NCBI GenBank assembly: GCA_040753085.1
Contig: JBFMHI010000014.1
Location: 1-36,957, forward strand
Origin: a bacterium
Lineage (GTDB): Bacteria > UBA9089 > JASEGY01
Reading direction: 5' to 3'
Length of the DNA: 36,957 nucleotides
Part shown: in pieces, positions 2,094 through 20,289 of the stretch
How the letters are laid out: every line of letters starts with the position of its first letter
How positions within the stretch are numbered: the first letter of the stretch is position 1
Program-made: the position numbers and the translations under genes
The notes under the pieces: generated by a model
Database searches by the model: none
Seen by the model: only the letters and a program-made list of their open reading frames with translations
What the model was told of the DNA's origin: nothing

Positions 2094-3101
2094 TTATTGA
2101 GAAGATACCTCCCGCAGATATTTAGCCGCCTCCTCAGGTGGAGTAGGGTTGATGTAAAAGCCGGAGCCCCATTCGAAACCAGCTACATTGACTAAACGGG
2201 GGATGATCTCAATATGCCAGTGATAATCTTCCAGATCATGGGGCAAGGAAAGAGGAGTGGTATGAAGCATATAATTATAAGGTGGTCCATCCAGGACATC
2301 TCGCATTCTTATCAATACTCCCCGCAATATTCGAGGCAGAGAACTCATGTCCTCCGAATTAATCTTATCAAAGTGCGGCTTGTGCTGCTTAGGGATAATA
2401 CAGACTTCAAAGGGAAACCGGGAGGCATAAGGACAGAAGGCGAGAAAATGCTCATCCTGGTCAATAATTCTGGCCTCATCGCGTATTTCTTGTCGGACTA
2501 TATCGCAATAAACACATCGCTCCTTGTACTCAAAATAGGTCCGTGATCCCCGCAGCTTTTCCTTAACTCTTTTAGGAACGATAGGGGTGGCAATAAGTTG
2601 TGAATGGGGATGCCTCAGGGATGCCCCGGCTACTTCCCCCTCATTTTTAAAGATTAAGATATATTTGAAGCGTGGGTCACGCTTCAGGTCAATTATTCTT
2701 GATTTATATGCCCAGATAGTCTGGGCTACTTCTGCTTCAGAGAGTTCAGCCATGGTGCGATTATGATCCGGCGAGTCAATAATTACCTCATGGGCGCCAA
2801 CTCCATTCATCTGATCATACATCCCTATGCCTTCACGATCTAAATCACCCTCTATCTGAAGGGCCGGAAACTTATTGGGCACTACCCGTAGGGTCCAACC
2901 AGGGGTGTTCGGTTTTCTTCCGTTTTCAGGCAAAGCCAAGATCTCCGGTGGGGTTTTATCTTCATTTCCAGGACAAAATGGGCAGGAATTCGAACTAGGC
3001 GTTGATTTCGTCTTTTCCGCAAAATCTTTTGGCCTTTTGGCCCTTTCTACCGCAATAATTATCCATCGTCCAATAATGGGGTCTTTTCGTAATTCTGGCA
3101 T
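2094..3101 (-). CDS. galT: Galactose-1-phosphate uridylyltransferase
   Basis: Transfers UMP between UDP-glucose and galactose-1-phosphate in the Leloir pathway. At 335 residues it is normal for the family. Visible motifs are a zinc-binding CPFCPGNED near residue 40, GAHEVIIDSPDHN near residue 103, the active-site His-Pro-His in RHPHSQLIATP near residue 163, a second CVYCDI pair near residue 196, and HWHIEIIPRL near residue 292. A ribosome binding site (AGGAG) precedes the ATG. It lies after ptsI on the same strand but behind 430 nt of repeats, so co-transcription is uncertain. A degenerate group II intron begins 12 nt past its stop. With glgA elsewhere in the window it points to hexose/glycogen metabolism. 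Confidence 0.95.
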   Translation of the reverse strand: MPELRKDPIIGRWIIIAVERAKRPKDFAEKTKSTPSSNSCPFCPGNEDKTPPEILALPENGRKPNTPGWTLRVVPNKFPALQIEGDLDREGIGMYDQMNGVGAHEVIIDSPDHNRTMAELSEAEVAQTIWAYKSRIIDLKRDPRFKYILIFKNEGEVAGASLRHPHSQLIATPIVPKRVKEKLRGSRTYFEYKERCVYCDIVRQEIRDEARIIDQDEHFLAFCPYASRFPFEVCIIPKQHKPHFDKINSEDMSSLPRILRGVLIRMRDVLDGPPYNYMLHTTPLSLPHDLEDYHWHIEIIPRLVNVAGFEWGSGFYINPTPPEEAAKYLREVSSQ

Positions 3102-3237
3102 CTTATCTTACTCCTGGAGTAACTTAGACTGTACCTACTCAAAATCAAGTTAAAAAAGTAAGCTCATTACAGATTATAGTGCTATGTGTTAAGTTTCATC
3201 TCCTTTTGTACCGACGACAGCGTTGGCATAAAAGCTT

Positions 3238-3453
3238 CCCCTCCCTTGATGGGATGGGTTAGGGGAGGGTGAAATAAACAACCCTCTCTTATTGTTGCTA
3301 ATACCCCATCTATATTTCTTAATATAAGGTTTTTAGCAAGAGTAATAATATTGCCCGCCCATTTCACCCTCACCCTATCCCTCTCCCATCAAGGGAGAGG
3401 GAATTTTGCTTTGTCTCCCAACTAACTGCTTAACTTAGTTTTGAGTAGTTACC
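3238..3453 (+). repeat. 119-bp dispersed repeat, copy B, in a larger palindromic unit
   Basis: Positions 3335-3453 repeat 10-128 almost exactly. Upstream, 3238-3277 (CCCCTCCCTTGATGGG through GGAGGGTGAAATA) is roughly the reverse complement of the copy's core (ATTTCACCCTCACCC through GGGAGAGGG), so the whole unit is an imperfect palindrome like a MITE. It ends GAGTAGTTAC. This and the next repeat fill most of the 429-nt gap between ptsI and galT; 3102-3237 holds the galT leader and a TATAAT-like hexamer at 3173-3178 without a convincing -35. No gene is seen in the gap. Confidence 0.8.
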
Positions 3454-3534
3454 TTAGACTGAAGGCTGAAGTCAGTCTATCCATCTGAGTAGCCTTCAGC
3501 CTTCCGCCTTCAGCCTATCTAACTGAGTAGTTAC
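3454..3534 (+). repeat. GGCTGAA-type heptamer inverted repeat
   Basis: Contains CTGAAGGCTGAAG on one side and CTTCAGCCTTCCGCCTTCAG on the other, so the plus strand can fold back on itself. It ends CTGAGTAGTTAC. Read on the minus strand, the element begins GTAACTACTCAG, and the TAA within those bases is the ptsI stop codon. The element therefore abuts, and probably supplies, the end of ptsI. Confidence 0.75.
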
Positions 3535-5294
3535 TTCTTCGTCATGTCGATGATATGTCCGAATCGGGCTGATAACCGGTCTCTCATTAACTCTTCGACT
3601 TCGTCAGCTTCAGACAAGGTAAAGGCCTGTTGAGCTAATTCCTTAGCTTCGCCAAGCGTAGTGGAGCGAATGATCTCCTTGATCTCAGGGATACTCACTC
3701 CACTCATAGAGAACTCGTCCAATCCCAGGCCAAGCAGCAAGACAGTAAAGAGGGGATTACTGGCCATCTCTCCGCACATCCCGACCCATTTGCCTTCCCG
3801 GTGAGCCGCCTCAATTGTCTCTTTAAGCAGGCGGAGGATAGCCGGATGAGAAGGCCGGTAAAGATAGGCAAGTTGTTCATTGCCCCGATCAACCGCCAGG
3901 GTATATTGGATCAGGTCATTGGTTCCGATGCTGAAAAAATCAACCTCTTTGGCTAATATATCAGCCATCATAGCGGCTGAAGGGGTTTCAATCATAATAC
4001 CCAATTCAATTTTTTCATCAAAAAGAATCCTTCTGCCTTCGAGTTCTTTCATAACGTCAGCCAAAATAGCCTTGGTTTTCCTTACTTCCTCGACATTGGA
4101 TATCATAGGGATCATGAGCTTGACTTTCCCATACTTGCTGGTCATAAGGATAGCCCGAAGCTGGGTCTTAAAGATCTCCGGGTGCTGGAGGCACAGGCGG
4201 ATGGCTCGAAGCCCCAAAAAGGGGTTGCTTTCAATCTGTCCCCCTGTTTCTTCTAAGTGATAAGGGAGCTTGTCTCCTCCCAGGTCCAGGGTTCGAAAGA
4301 TCACCGGATAAGGGGAGATGGTTTCAACGGCCTCCTGATAGGTCTTAAATAACTCCTCTTCTGAGGGGAGTTCATTTCGGTTAAGGTAGAGAAACTCGGT
4401 GCGATATAGTCCGATCCCTTCCGCCCCATGTTCTTTAGCCAGGCTAACTTCTTCGATAAGCTCTACATTGGCGGCTATCTCCACACGGTATCTGTCCTGA
4501 GTTTGAGCCGGTAAATCCTTTAATTTAGCCAGGCCGGCCTCAAAGGCCTCAAATTCGCGCTTCCTTTGAGTATATTCTTCCAGCTTAGTCTGGCTTGGGT
4601 TGGCCACTATTATCCCCCTCAGCCCATCAACGATCAGCGTATCTCCATCTTTGACCTGAAGGGTGGCGTTGGAGAGGCCAACTACCGCCGGTATCTCTAA
4701 GGCACGAGCTAAAATAGCCGTATGAGAAGTCGGCCCGCCCCCCTCAGTGACAAAAGCCACTACTTTAGATTTATCTATTTGAGCCGTATCAGAAGGGGTA
4801 AGGTTATGGGCAACGATCACGCTGCCCGGTTCTATTTCCTCTAAGCCTAACCTCTTTCTCTCAACCAGATTGTATAGGATTTTCTTCCCTATATCATAAA
4901 TATCAATCGCCCTTTCCCGGATATATTCATCCTCTAAGTCCTCGAAATTCTTGCTCAACACCTCCAGGACTTCCCACAGGGCATATTCCACATTCTTATG
5001 TTCATCCTTTATCTTTTTAGTTACTTCAATAATGAGAAAAGGGTCTTCCAAAAGGAGCAAATGAGCGCTAAAGATATCGGCATACTCTTTAGACATTCCA
5101 TTGGCCACATTATCTCTAATCCTGGTAATCTCTCCCTTAGCCTTGGCCACGGCTTCCTTAAATTGGGCTATTTCAGCCGCCACATTCTCCTCAGATATCT
5201 GGTGCCGTCTGACCTTAAATTTTTCCACTTCATAAAGGAAGGCCTGGCCAAAAACGATTCCTGGTGAAGCCGCAATACCTGATAAGGTAATCAT
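3531..5294 (-). CDS. ptsI: Phosphoenolpyruvate-protein phosphotransferase, PTS enzyme I
   Basis: Takes phosphate from PEP and passes it to HPr in the cytoplasm, the first step of the sugar phosphotransferase system. At 587 residues it is of family length. The phosphohistidine is His191 in GGGPTSHTAILARALEIPAV. The PEP-binding C-terminal barrel shows FRTLDLGGDK, the substrate-loop region IETPSAAMMAD, and the active-site Cys in GMCGEMASNP near residue 505. Its ATG overlaps the HPr stop (ATGA), so the two are translationally coupled. Its stop codon is contributed by a repeat boundary (see 3454-3534). It follows the IID-HPr genes in the PTS cluster. Confidence 0.97.
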   Translation of the reverse strand: MITLSGIAASPGIVFGQAFLYEVEKFKVRRHQISEENVAAEIAQFKEAVAKAKGEITRIRDNVANGMSKEYADIFSAHLLLLEDPFLIIEVTKKIKDEHKNVEYALWEVLEVLSKNFEDLEDEYIRERAIDIYDIGKKILYNLVERKRLGLEEIEPGSVIVAHNLTPSDTAQIDKSKVVAFVTEGGGPTSHTAILARALEIPAVVGLSNATLQVKDGDTLIVDGLRGIIVANPSQTKLEEYTQRKREFEAFEAGLAKLKDLPAQTQDRYRVEIAANVELIEEVSLAKEHGAEGIGLYRTEFLYLNRNELPSEEELFKTYQEAVETISPYPVIFRTLDLGGDKLPYHLEETGGQIESNPFLGLRAIRLCLQHPEIFKTQLRAILMTSKYGKVKLMIPMISNVEEVRKTKAILADVMKELEGRRILFDEKIELGIMIETPSAAMMADILAKEVDFFSIGTNDLIQYTLAVDRGNEQLAYLYRPSHPAILRLLKETIEAAHREGKWVGMCGEMASNPLFTVLLLGLGLDEFSMSGVSIPEIKEIIRSTTLGEAKELAQQAFTLSEADEVEELMRDRLSARFGHIIDMTKK

Positions 5295-14940: not shown

Positions 14941-15627
14941 CTAAGCCGCCAGCTTTTCTTCTACCGTTCTTCTTAAGGAATTGACTTCCTCTTGCAACTT
15001 TTCAACTCGGTCAAAGACAAGGGCATATTCCTCCCGCCGGACAGCCAGATTATACAATTCGTCAAGACGACGAGTAAGCCTGTCAATCTGCTTCAATAAA
15101 TTTGCCCATAAGCTACGGATATTTTCATTAGTGTTATCAAACCTGCCCACTAAATCCAATTGAAGGGCATCAACTTTCCCATTAGTCTCATCAATCCGTT
15201 GATTAGTCTCATCAATCCTTTGATTAGTCTCATCAATCCTTTGATTAGTCTCATCAATCCTTTGATTAGTCTCATCAATCCTTTTACTGTTATCGTCAAT
15301 CCTTCGGTTAGTCTCGTCAATCCTTCGGTTAGTCTCGTCAATCCTGGCGGTTAATTCCGAACGAAGGGCGTTAATCTCCCCTCGGACAAGCTCGATCCTG
15401 TTGATGATTTCTCCTCTAATAGCGTCAATTCGCTCATTAGTCGCCTCGATCCGGGTATTAGTCGCATCAATCCTCTGCCCTAAATAAATCAGTTGCTCAT
15501 TAATATCGCTCATCCTGGACGACATCTCATCTAATCTTCCCTCTATCCGCTCAAATCGATTGTTGTGCTTAGCCAATTCAGGTAATAAAGCAGCTTTGAC
15601 AGCTTCAACCAGGGCTTTTGTTTCCAT
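14941..15627 (-). CDS. Coiled-coil protein with a 21-bp minisatellite
   Basis: 228 residues, predicted almost entirely coiled coil. Residues about 93-149 are tandem heptads of the type RIDETNQ, encoded by near-identical 21-bp DNA units. Flanking parts keep the heptad pattern (RIDATNT, RIEATNE, RIDAIRG) but are diverged. No signal peptide or membrane segment is seen, so it is probably cytoplasmic. It starts 1 nt after the prfB stop and is followed 23 nt later by purD, so it is cotranscribed with both. I do not recognise the family; it recalls repeat proteins such as Bdr, but only in style. Function unknown. Confidence 0.75.
   Translation of the reverse strand: METKALVEAVKAALLPELAKHNNRFERIEGRLDEMSSRMSDINEQLIYLGQRIDATNTRIEATNERIDAIRGEIINRIELVRGEINALRSELTARIDETNRRIDETNRRIDDNSKRIDETNQRIDETNQRIDETNQRIDETNQRIDETNGKVDALQLDLVGRFDNTNENIRSLWANLLKQIDRLTRRLDELYNLAVRREEYALVFDRVEKLQEEVNSLRRTVEEKLAA
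15181..15348 (-). repeat. 21-bp minisatellite, about eight units, in-frame
   Basis: On the plus strand the unit is ATTAGTCTCATCAATCCTTTG or a close variant, repeated about eight times. Four or five consecutive central units are nearly identical and the outer ones more diverged, which points to recent expansion by slippage or recombination. Each unit encodes one heptad, so copy-number change lengthens the coiled coil without a frameshift. Confidence 0.9.
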
Positions 15628-16807: not shown

Positions 16808-17794
16808 TTATTTTTCGCTTACTTGGCGACGGCTTCGCTGGTCTAAGCGGTTCCATAATAAACCAACGCCACATTTAATAGCCGTGCCTAACAAACAGAC
16901 CCAGCCCAGGACATCACCCCATCGGGTATAAATAGTTTCCGGCCTCCCCTTAGTGATATCGCGGATAAGGAGTTCCTCTATATAAAGATCAGACCGCTTT
17001 TCTATCTCGCCCAGGGGATTAATAAAGGCCGAGACGCCGGCGTTGCCGGCCCGGACAAAATAGCATCGATTTTCAATGGCCCGAAATACCCCCATGGCGA
17101 AGTGCTGCTCGTGGGAGGTAGGATTCTTGGACCAGGCATCGTTAGTAATATTAACCAAAAAGTCAGCTTGGCGCCTGACAAACTGACGGGCCAGATCCCC
17201 AAAAATCCCTTCATAGCAGATCAGGACCCCAAACTTCATGCCGGCTTTAGGGAGATTAAAGATAGTAAAGGTATCTCCCGGCGTCCAATCACCTGCTTCC
17301 GAAGGCAGGATTTCCCTTAACCACGGAAAAAACCTTTCGGCTGGAATAGTCTCTCCAAAGGGAACTAGATGAATCTTGTCGTATCGATCAGTGATTTCAC
17401 CTTCAGGTGAAATGAGAAAGGCACTATTAAAATGCTCCTGTTCGGACTTCCAGTGAGGTGCTCCCACCAGAAGGAACCCATTTATTTCTGAGGCTAAAAG
17501 GAAGATACGTCTCGTCAAATAATAGCTTTCATCAACAGGCTCGACAATAGCTGTTTCAGTCCAGATGGTTAAATCAGGCGCCGCCTCTTTAGCCGCCTTT
17601 CTGGTCAAACCCCAAAGGGTTTTGATTGTCTCATCCCTGAGGCCGCTCCATTTCGTGTCCGGATCAAAATTGCCTTGAATAAGGGCGATCCTGAGCCGGC
17701 TGTCCCGCGGTAGTCCGGCTTCTATCCGGCACCACCAGCCATAAGCCAGACACAGCCCCAGAGTCAAGGCCAGGATCAGGCCTTCTAATTTCAT
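16808..17794 (-). CDS. lnt: Apolipoprotein N-acyltransferase, C-terminal (nitrilase) half
   Basis: 328 residues covering the last part of Lnt, which N-acylates lipoproteins at the inner membrane. Residues 1-21 are a membrane segment, followed by the periplasmic nitrilase domain with the full catalytic set: Glu80 in IWTETAIV, Lys140 in DKIHLVPFGE, Cys193 in LICYEG (compare Glu267, Lys335 and Cys387 of E. coli). A final membrane segment lies near residues 290-312. Its ATG overlaps the stop of the coiled-coil gene by one base (TAATG). The N-terminal membrane half is a separate frame at 18267-18794; the halves sum to 503 residues, near the 512 of E. coli Lnt. Whether they assemble into an active enzyme is inference. 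Confidence 0.9.
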   Translation of the reverse strand: MKLEGLILALTLGLCLAYGWWCRIEAGLPRDSRLRIALIQGNFDPDTKWSGLRDETIKTLWGLTRKAAKEAAPDLTIWTETAIVEPVDESYYLTRRIFLLASEINGFLLVGAPHWKSEQEHFNSAFLISPEGEITDRYDKIHLVPFGETIPAERFFPWLREILPSEAGDWTPGDTFTIFNLPKAGMKFGVLICYEGIFGDLARQFVRRQADFLVNITNDAWSKNPTSHEQHFAMGVFRAIENRCYFVRAGNAGVSAFINPLGEIEKRSDLYIEELLIRDITKGRPETIYTRWGDVLGWVCLLGTAIKCGVGLLWNRLDQRSRRQVSEK

Positions 17795-18252
17795 TACACC
17801 AGCCCGGCAGCCTTGAAGGCCTTGGCCAGCCTCTCGTCAGTGATAGCGAGTTCCTTCATGGCAATCAAGAATCTTCTAACCTCGTCAATCTCTTTCTCCC
17901 TTGCTTTCTCCCATTTTCTTGCCAGGAGAGGCATACCTACCACCGAAGCCAATAAGGCTATCAGTAAATATTGAATGAATTCAAACCTTTTATCCACTTG
18001 CTCAAATCGCTTGTCTATTTGCTCAAATCGCTCGTCCATCCGCTTCCCCATTTCTTCAAATCGTATGTCCATTTGCTTCTGCATTTGTTCAAATCGCTCG
18101 TCTATTTGCTTCTGCATTTGTTCAAATCGCAGGTTCACTTGTTCAAACTGCCTGTTCATCTGGTCCAGAATAACTTCATTAGAAACAGGCCTGGCCATAA
18201 CACTTACCGGTAATACTAAGTAAAATATCCACCAGAACGAGACTCGTTTCAT
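17794..18252 (-). CDS. Membrane-anchored periplasmic coiled-coil protein inserted in lnt
   Basis: 152 residues from the ATG at 18252, which follows GGAGAGG; an in-frame ATG at 18270 overlaps the upstream lnt half (ATGA). Residues about 1-21 form a signal-like segment (FWWIFYLVLPVSVMA). Then comes a coiled coil of 11- and 7-residue units such as RFEQMQKQIDE and RFEQVDK, a hydrophobic stretch FIQYLLIALLASVVGMPLLA near residues 90-109, and a charged helical tail EKAREKEIDEVRRF. This suggests a periplasmic rod anchored in the inner membrane. Short DNA repeats underlie the coil. The family is unrecognised and function is unknown, but the position inside lnt and the tight coupling on both sides suggest it is translated with Lnt. 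Confidence 0.75.
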   Translation of the reverse strand: MKRVSFWWIFYLVLPVSVMARPVSNEVILDQMNRQFEQVNLRFEQMQKQIDERFEQMQKQMDIRFEEMGKRMDERFEQIDKRFEQVDKRFEFIQYLLIALLASVVGMPLLARKWEKAREKEIDEVRRFLIAMKELAITDERLAKAFKAAGLV

Positions 18253-18266
18253 TAATCCCTCTCCTT

Positions 18267-18794
18267 TCATTTTTCAGCCAGAAGGCTTTCTCTCCAGGCC
18301 AGACAAAGATCAGCCAGATAAGAATTGACCCAGACGATCAGGAACGAAATACCCCAGACACCGGTTATATCCGCTACCTGAATAACCACAAGTTGTTTAT
18401 ACTGAGAGTATCCTAAGACTCCCCAGGGGAAACCAAGGACCCCTAAGCTGCGGAGATATTCAATCCCTACCCAGACAAAAGGAGCCACAAAGGAACCTTT
18501 GTGCTTATTTTCCACACACTTCAAAATAAGGCCAAACCCTACGCCGTAAAGGGTTAAGGCCAACAAGGTGAAAGGTATGGCCAGGGGATGATAGATCCTT
18601 ATCCAGTGCAGAAGCCCTGAAAAGAAGGCCAGATAGGCAAGTCCCCCGCCTACGGCTGCTTTAAACAGACTTTTACTGGCCCTGATGGCTATAAAAACAG
18701 GAACCAGGGCAATCCAGGCCAGAGGCCAAAGATCATAAGGAGGAAAAGAAAGGACCAGCAGTCCGCCTGACAGGATAGCTAAAAGATATCTCAT
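18267..18794 (-). CDS. lnt: Apolipoprotein N-acyltransferase, N-terminal membrane half
   Basis: 175 residues, about five membrane segments. Typical Lnt sequence includes LSFPPYDLWPLAWIALVPVF near residues 15-35, SGLLHWI near residue 59, and VWVGIEYLRSLGVLGFPWGVLGYSQ near residues 106-130, followed by ADITGVWGISFLIVWVNSYLA. It ends right after this segment, at the cytoplasmic loop that in a normal Lnt leads into the next membrane segment. It has no catalytic domain; that is encoded by 16808-17794. The stop overlaps an ATG of the coiled-coil gene (ATGA). It starts 7 nt after the glgA stop. Confidence 0.9.
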   Translation of the reverse strand: MRYLLAILSGGLLVLSFPPYDLWPLAWIALVPVFIAIRASKSLFKAAVGGGLAYLAFFSGLLHWIRIYHPLAIPFTLLALTLYGVGFGLILKCVENKHKGSFVAPFVWVGIEYLRSLGVLGFPWGVLGYSQYKQLVVIQVADITGVWGISFLIVWVNSYLADLCLAWRESLLAEK

Positions 18795-18801
18795 TCATCC
18801 C

Positions 18802-20289
18802 CTACTTTTGAGAAGATACCCCCCTTTGTCTCTTTTCTATGGCGTGCTTGTAAAGTTTAAGATATTCTTTAGCTGAGGTGTCCCACGAAAAATCAGCCGC
18901 CTGAGCCCGTTTAACCATCGCCTTCCAGACCTGTTTGTGGTGGTAAACAGACAGCGCTCGGTTTATGGTGGCCAGTAATTCTGCCCCGGAAGGCTCTTCA
19001 AAGACAAAACCATTGCCGCGTCTTCCTCGATGATCAAATTCGTAAATAGTATCAGCTAAACCGCCCGTGGCCCTTACTACAGGAATAGTTCCGTATTTAA
19101 GACTGATCAGTTGTCCCAATCCACACGGTTCGTATCTTGAAGGCATAAGGAACATATCCGAGCCGGCGTATATCTTATGGGCCACCGCATTGTCATAGCC
19201 AAGCAAGACCACTATTTTATCTTTGTGCTTCTTCCTTATTTTAGTGAAAAGTTTATGGTATCTTTGGTCACCTGTTCCCAGAAGAACGATTTGGAGATCT
19301 TCTTCCATTAGGTCGTCAATGACCTCGGCCAGGATGTCAAATCCTTTTTGAGCAGCCAATCTGGATACAATGCCTATGAGAGGCACATTCTTTTTATAAG
19401 GCAAACCAACTTCGGCTAACAAGGCCTTTTTGTCTTCTTCCTTGCCTTCAAAATTACCCCTCTCGAATGGCCGGGCAATAAACTTATCCTTGGCCGGGTC
19501 CCATTCCGTATAATCAATGCCATTTAGCACGCCGTAGAGTTCATCCCGCCGGTATCTTAACACTCCCTCCAGCCCACAGCCGTACTCCTCGGTTTGAATC
19601 TCTTCCGCATATTTTTTGCTGACCGTATTCAGGGAGTCGGCATAAAGGAGTCCACCCTTCATAAAATTCAGCTTACCATAGAATTCAAGTCCATTGATAG
19701 TAAATACTTCCTTTTTAGAAAGGCCGGTTAACAAATGAAAATCTTCGGCCCAGAAGACTCCCTGGTAAGCCAGGTTATGCACGGTAAAGAGCGTGGCAAT
19801 GGATGAATAAAAAGGGTCATTTTTGTAGGCCGTTTTTAAAAACAAAGGCACCAGGGCGCTTTGCCAATCATTACAGTGGATTATATCCGGCTGCCAGTTA
19901 TCTAAATGGGGGAGCGCTTCCAAGATGCCCCTGGAAAACAGGGTAAATCTTTCGGCGTTGTCCCAATAATCGCCTTTGGCGTCTCCGTAAAGCCCGGGCC
20001 GGTTATAATGTCGGTTGCTCTCGATAAAATATGCCTTTACCCCGCCAGCCGTGGTAGAGAGCACTCTAATGGATTCCAACCGGTTGCTAATGGGCACCTT
20101 AAGCCGATGGTTGACCTCGGTTAAATCAAAGTCACCTTTCATCGGGTATTTGGGTAAAATAAGGCGGGCATCAACGCCTAAATGAGCTAACGCCTTAGGC
20201 AGGGCGCCGGTAACATCGGCCAAGCCTCCTGTTTTGGCAAAGGGAACCGCTTCCGAGGCAGCCATTAAAACTTTTAGTCTTTGAGGCAT
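18802..20289 (-). CDS. glgA: Glycogen synthase (ADP-glucose type)
   Basis: Adds glucosyl units from ADP-glucose to glycogen. 495 residues, a GT5 enzyme. Visible are the substrate-binding KTGGLADVTGALPKALAHLG at residues 19-38, FTVHNLAYQGVF near residue 170, GIVSRLAAQKGFDIL near residue 311, and the C-terminal EPCGLGQLISLKYGTIPVVRATGGLADTI near residues 390-418. A strong sigma-70-type promoter lies upstream (20395-20424), with a GGCTGAA hairpin in the leader. It begins the glgA-lnt-coil-prfB run on this strand. Confidence 0.97.
   Translation of the reverse strand: MPQRLKVLMAASEAVPFAKTGGLADVTGALPKALAHLGVDARLILPKYPMKGDFDLTEVNHRLKVPISNRLESIRVLSTTAGGVKAYFIESNRHYNRPGLYGDAKGDYWDNAERFTLFSRGILEALPHLDNWQPDIIHCNDWQSALVPLFLKTAYKNDPFYSSIATLFTVHNLAYQGVFWAEDFHLLTGLSKKEVFTINGLEFYGKLNFMKGGLLYADSLNTVSKKYAEEIQTEEYGCGLEGVLRYRRDELYGVLNGIDYTEWDPAKDKFIARPFERGNFEGKEEDKKALLAEVGLPYKKNVPLIGIVSRLAAQKGFDILAEVIDDLMEEDLQIVLLGTGDQRYHKLFTKIRKKHKDKIVVLLGYDNAVAHKIYAGSDMFLMPSRYEPCGLGQLISLKYGTIPVVRATGGLADTIYEFDHRGRRGNGFVFEEPSGAELLATINRALSVYHHKQVWKAMVKRAQAADFSWDTSAKEYLKLYKHAIEKRQRGVSSQK

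Follow-up and report, generated by a model that had tools for sequence, protein, structure and literature searches.

We describe here an lnt gene that is divided into two open reading frames, with another gene between them, in a bacterial genome (GTDB lineage Bacteria; UBA9089; JASEGY01). The window is the whole stretch of DNA that was analysed, 36,957 nt long, positions 1 to 36,957 of the forward strand of contig JBFMHI010000014.1 (GenBank assembly GCA_040753085.1). A check of the open reading frames placed the N-half, the middle gene and the C-half all on the minus strand, at the positions given by an earlier sequence-only reading of this DNA. The features of the locus, in the direction of transcription, are as follows.

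18802..20289, minus strand: glgA, directly upstream of lntN
18267..18794, minus strand: N-half of lnt (lntN), 175 aa, the membrane part of Lnt; Pfam LNT_N, E=3.9e-39
18261..18266, minus strand: Shine-Dalgarno sequence AAGGAG of the middle gene, starting immediately past the N-half stop codon (read from the sequence)
17794..18252, minus strand: middle gene, 152 aa from its likely start (17794..18270, 158 aa, if counted from the first ATG)
17792..17796, minus strand: TAATG, in which the middle-gene stop overlaps the C-half start (read from the sequence; also kept in the sister species)
16808..17794, minus strand: C-half of lnt (lntC), 328 aa, with a signal-anchor helix, the nitrilase domain and a C-terminal helix

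In the window lntN and lntC lie in different frames, and Lnt there is two open reading frames and not a single polypeptide. The sequence-only reading had proposed that joints of ATGA and TAATG would let a ribosome pass through all three frames. The TAATG (17796-17792) is real and likely couples translation into the C-half, which has no strong Shine-Dalgarno sequence of its own. The ATGA, however, is probably not a real start: the second ATG, at 18252, is preceded 8 nt upstream by AAGGAG (18266-18261), and the middle gene probably begins there, 14 nt past the N-half stop. Copies of AATGAAA at the edges of the insert had also been read as a possible target duplication, which fails. The first copy lies at 18271-18265 (and not at 18272-18266), the window contains 17 copies of the motif, all three local copies fall at ATG codons in ATG-AAA contexts, and joining the flanks on a single copy puts a stop right after codon 175 and leaves no open frame. 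A transposable element with a target site duplication was rejected on these grounds. Elsewhere in the window, positions 14941-15627 encode a 228-aa protein with a coiled coil and a stretch of RIDETNQ repeats; its gene follows prfB after 1 nt and precedes purD by 23 nt.

The N-half covers positions 1-158 of the 159 in the Pfam LNT_N profile (E=3.9e-39) and so holds a complete LNT_N domain; it spans 3-124 of the TIGR00546 lnt model, of which the C-half matches 130-395 with 252 bits. The C-half begins with MK and a hydrophobic stretch, contains the helix ahead of the nitrilase domain, the entire nitrilase domain (CN_hydrolase, E=2.7e-34) and the last helix, and matches Lnt of the PDB at an E value of about 3e-25. 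In an alignment with intact orthologues the two halves sum to a whole Lnt with nothing missing at the joint, as the sequence-only reading had supposed. For the essential residues of E. coli Lnt, W237, E267, K335, E343, C387, Y388 and E389, the counterparts in the C-half are all present (W49, E80, K140, E148 and C193-Y194-E195, from alignment to PDB 6NWR and from their positions), which bears out the earlier claim of an intact Glu/Lys/Cys triad (E80, K140 and C193). The lid loop between the Lys and Cys strands is found here and in the sister species described below. The loop in which the split falls precedes the helix leading into the periplasmic nitrilase domain, and its length differs among the phylum's intact Lnts. 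This loop is probably cytoplasmic, as had been proposed, because in solved Lnt structures the membrane part comprises eight helices, and both of its ends lie on the cytoplasmic side (PMC5500888).

A tree built from 28 Lnt proteins places the split pair among the lid-bearing intact Lnts of the phylum (support 100/99), to which the nitrilase half is 43-49% identical. The order glgA-lnt recurs in three other genomes of the phylum (L123, L125 and L126; families f3 and f5) and in the sister. Because the tree groups it with lid-bearing Lnts and this gene order is shared across families, the split pair is, judged by phylogeny and position, the canonical, housekeeping lnt of the genome, and it has kept its ancestral position next to glgA. 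A gene for Lgt is present in both genomes and one for LspA was found in the window's genome, which therefore has a lipoprotein pathway for Lnt to serve. No Lnt match at all was found in five genomes of the same phylum, from families f2 and f7 (G002, G007, G010, G012 and G014).

The window's genome has two further members of the Lnt family, both full-length and with intact triads, at L116:646-2103 (contig C83) and L117:579-2072 (contig C92). They are divergent and group apart from the split pair in the tree of 28 proteins; they have no lid loop, the position of W237 aligns poorly, and the FPWG motif differs. The lid loop of Lnt holds essential residues (PMC8048626). Lnt is thus present once in canonical form, and an intact second canonical lnt was rejected, since the other two copies are lidless paralogs; the gene family as such, however, is not single-copy. 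Both paralogs adjoin genes for C39 peptidases and for MacA-, MacB- and TolC-like proteins (names read from sequence), and the C92 cluster (L117) additionally has a gene for a FabF-like ketosynthase. The paralogs appear to belong to peptide-export clusters and not to serve as a general Lnt, although they may carry out some N-acylation of lipoproteins. At least one also occurs in the sister, where a contig end truncates it. Further lidless full-length relatives occur in clusters with MacA-, MacB- and TolC-like genes at L150:9855-11966 and L151:2728-4575, and open reading frames with leaders resembling the double-glycine type lie in such clusters at L116:10190-11152 (an M23 peptidase), L117:9602-10216 and L150:5734-6207. 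The clusters may possibly form a system that acylates exported peptides.

The same split was sought in related genomes and was found in the one other species of the genus that was covered (G001, record JASEGY010000361.1, locus L064), here called the sister. Its lnt spans 2284-3876, with the N-half at 2284-2820 and the C-half from 2863 onward, and the order is glgA, N-half, 42 nt, C-half; the N-halves of the window and the sister are 82% identical. What remains of the middle gene, its final 18 codons (LAVTDERLAKAFKADGLL), occupies the end of the sister's N-half and the 42-nt gap and terminates in the same TAATG. This remnant indicates that the common ancestor had all three genes, of which the middle one was later largely deleted in the sister. 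An assembly accident was rejected as the source of the split, because the separately assembled sister has the same split and the remnant.

In the sister (L064:2284-3876) the halves share a reading frame that is interrupted by one TGA (next base C); the 14 intervening codons are otherwise free of stops. This arrangement would allow the sister still to make full-length Lnt by readthrough of the TGA, on its way back to one chain. Such a frame has a rough chance of about 1 in 5, UGA looks like an ordinary stop (the window's genome has prfB with its normal frameshift site), and readthrough is inapplicable to the window, where lntN and lntC do not share a frame; we regard it as extremely unlikely. 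An AlphaFold model of the sister sequence read through at the TGA had a pLDDT of 56, too poor to judge the interface.

Both halves are under purifying selection as separate genes since the two species diverged. Estimated from this one species pair, dN/dS between the window and the sister is 0.19 for lntN (bootstrap 0.12-0.29), 0.13 for lntC (0.09-0.20) and 0.10 for glgA (0.07-0.14), and neither half has an internal stop in either species. Over the 18-codon tail the two species show 10 synonymous differences in 14 sites and 4 non-synonymous in 40; pN is 0.10 and, in this short remnant, pS is 0.71, compared with 0.40-0.56 in the flanks. The synonymous divergence of the remnant is at least that of its flanks, and the split is therefore as old as the species divergence. 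For the greater part of the interval since the divergence, the tail was translated as protein.

These data bear on whether the insertion killed the housekeeping lnt, leaving a decaying pseudogene whose role one of the full-length paralogs took over. The two paralogs with intact triads would offer such a replacement, but they are without the lid loop and sit in clusters with C39 peptidase and MacAB-like genes, and, despite a split dating back to the species divergence, dN/dS is far below 1 and internal stops are absent. Loss of function is on this evidence very improbable. The sequence-only reading had itself held that an intact second lnt together with decay of the halves would count against a working pair; the relatives proved to be lidless and the halves free of decay. 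The purifying selection seen in lntN and lntC is consistent with a functional Lnt of two chains.

The middle gene encodes, as had been proposed, a signal-bearing, membrane-anchored coiled-coil protein, with a signal peptide, a long coiled coil, one membrane helix (residues 92-110 by hydropathy) and a short tail. Its predicted structure is one helix over residues 25-138, with a pLDDT of about 95 over the coil. It shares features with a family, here A1, whose members consist of a signal peptide, coiled coil, transmembrane helix, the motif WDRRTALAP and a tail: the middle protein has the signal peptide, the coiled coil, the single transmembrane helix and a short tail ending in Gly and hydrophobic residues, and the WDRRTALAP motif is absent after its transmembrane helix. 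Nor did the match to the family prove strong, for the genome search gave none at E<=1e-6 for the middle gene. Comparison with A1 by hhalign gave a probability of 96.9% over 126 columns, a value partly inflated by the coiled coil. The A1 profile scored 34.7 bits on the middle protein against at most 9.9 in 200 shuffles, and 14.2 against at most 6.3 on the tail alone. A1-type genes occur in 15 of 19 genomes of the phylum and in 8 of 174 other genomes, with up to 14 matches in one genome. They adjoin unrelated genes: one (L161:2341-2844) lies 23 nt downstream of an HdrA-like gene, and another (L163:350-865) lies with others downstream of a NuoL-like gene (neighbour names read from sequence). The middle gene may thus be, at best, a distant member of a multi-copy family dispersed through the phylum. 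The best reading of this distribution is that A1 genes spread into operons and that one here landed within a gene.

The sequence-only reading had suggested a third, coiled-coil partner for the two-part enzyme. In a dedicated three-protein enzyme the coiled-coil protein would hold the Lnt halves together or regulate them. The middle gene does lie between the halves with a TAATG overlap, the signal peptide and membrane helix would place its product in the same membrane, and the 18-codon tail evolved under purifying selection. The sister, however, deleted nearly all of the gene and retains both halves, so the middle gene is dispensable, and similar genes are multi-copy and scattered beside unrelated genes. 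A dedicated third partner is accordingly very unlikely, and there is equally little to recommend a version in which the middle protein is a third subunit aiding assembly or control of the Lnt chains in the window's species and is superfluous in the sister.

We consider it likely that a canonical lnt was broken in the ancestor of the genus by a small coiled-coil gene, and that its halves assemble into a working Lnt for which the middle protein is unneeded. In this scenario a small secreted coiled-coil gene would have inserted into the variable cytoplasmic loop of lnt, and insertion would be the cause of the split. The gaps and overlaps suggest one transcript with glgA and coupled translation of the N-half, the middle gene and the C-half. 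The MK and hydrophobic stretch of the C-half may act as a signal anchor that brings the nitrilase domain into the periplasm, where acyltransferase activity would be retained; the two chains would pack non-covalently in the membrane, like the helices of one-piece Lnt. The middle gene, needless for Lnt function, would later have been lost in the sister.

Lnt is essential in proteobacteria and has been proposed as an antibiotic target. If the two-chain form is correct, the six-helix part is able to fold apart from the helix-nitrilase part and to meet it in the membrane, and the split would offer a naturally occurring cut site for mechanistic work and for expressing the enzyme in two parts. It would also be a clear case of a gene that lands inside an important gene, a host gene that survives as two, and an intruder that is later lost. 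For annotation, neither half by itself resembles a whole Lnt. Among the strongest LNT_N matches listed from 292 genomes no comparable split was present, and the papers searched included none on a split Lnt. Two candidates from the genome search were rejected, a 267-aa frame in G282 that runs off its contig, and a 405-aa one in G125, where an apparent frameshift lies within the nitrilase domain. This last Lnt, from an unrelated genome (L156:1979-3602, contig C50), has overlapping frames of 388 and 173 aa across the frameshift, which may be genuine or a sequencing error.

Compared with canonical Lnt (TIGR00546; LNT_N PF20154 and CN_hydrolase PF00795; PDB 5N6H, 5VRG and 5XHQ), the split pair has the same domains in the same order, the same catalytic residues, the lid loop and the neighbourhood typical of the phylum. 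Canonical Lnt is one protein, whereas here there are two, cut between the six-helix membrane part and the pre-nitrilase helix, with another gene between. The pair thus descends from Lnt and would work like it, as a two-gene variant. With the A1 family the middle protein has in common its architecture and a similar tail, but it is without WDRRTALAP and scores weakly. LnsA/LnsB, which are not known to be related to Lnt, are likewise two genes; both genes here, in contrast, are pieces of Lnt itself. In staphylococci the two genes lnsA and lnsB are needed for lipoprotein N-acylation (PMC8048626). Comparable too is the gene fission of a membrane enzyme, where likewise one ancestral open reading frame becomes two adjacent, co-directional ones under selection; the present case differs in that the break holds, or once held, another gene.
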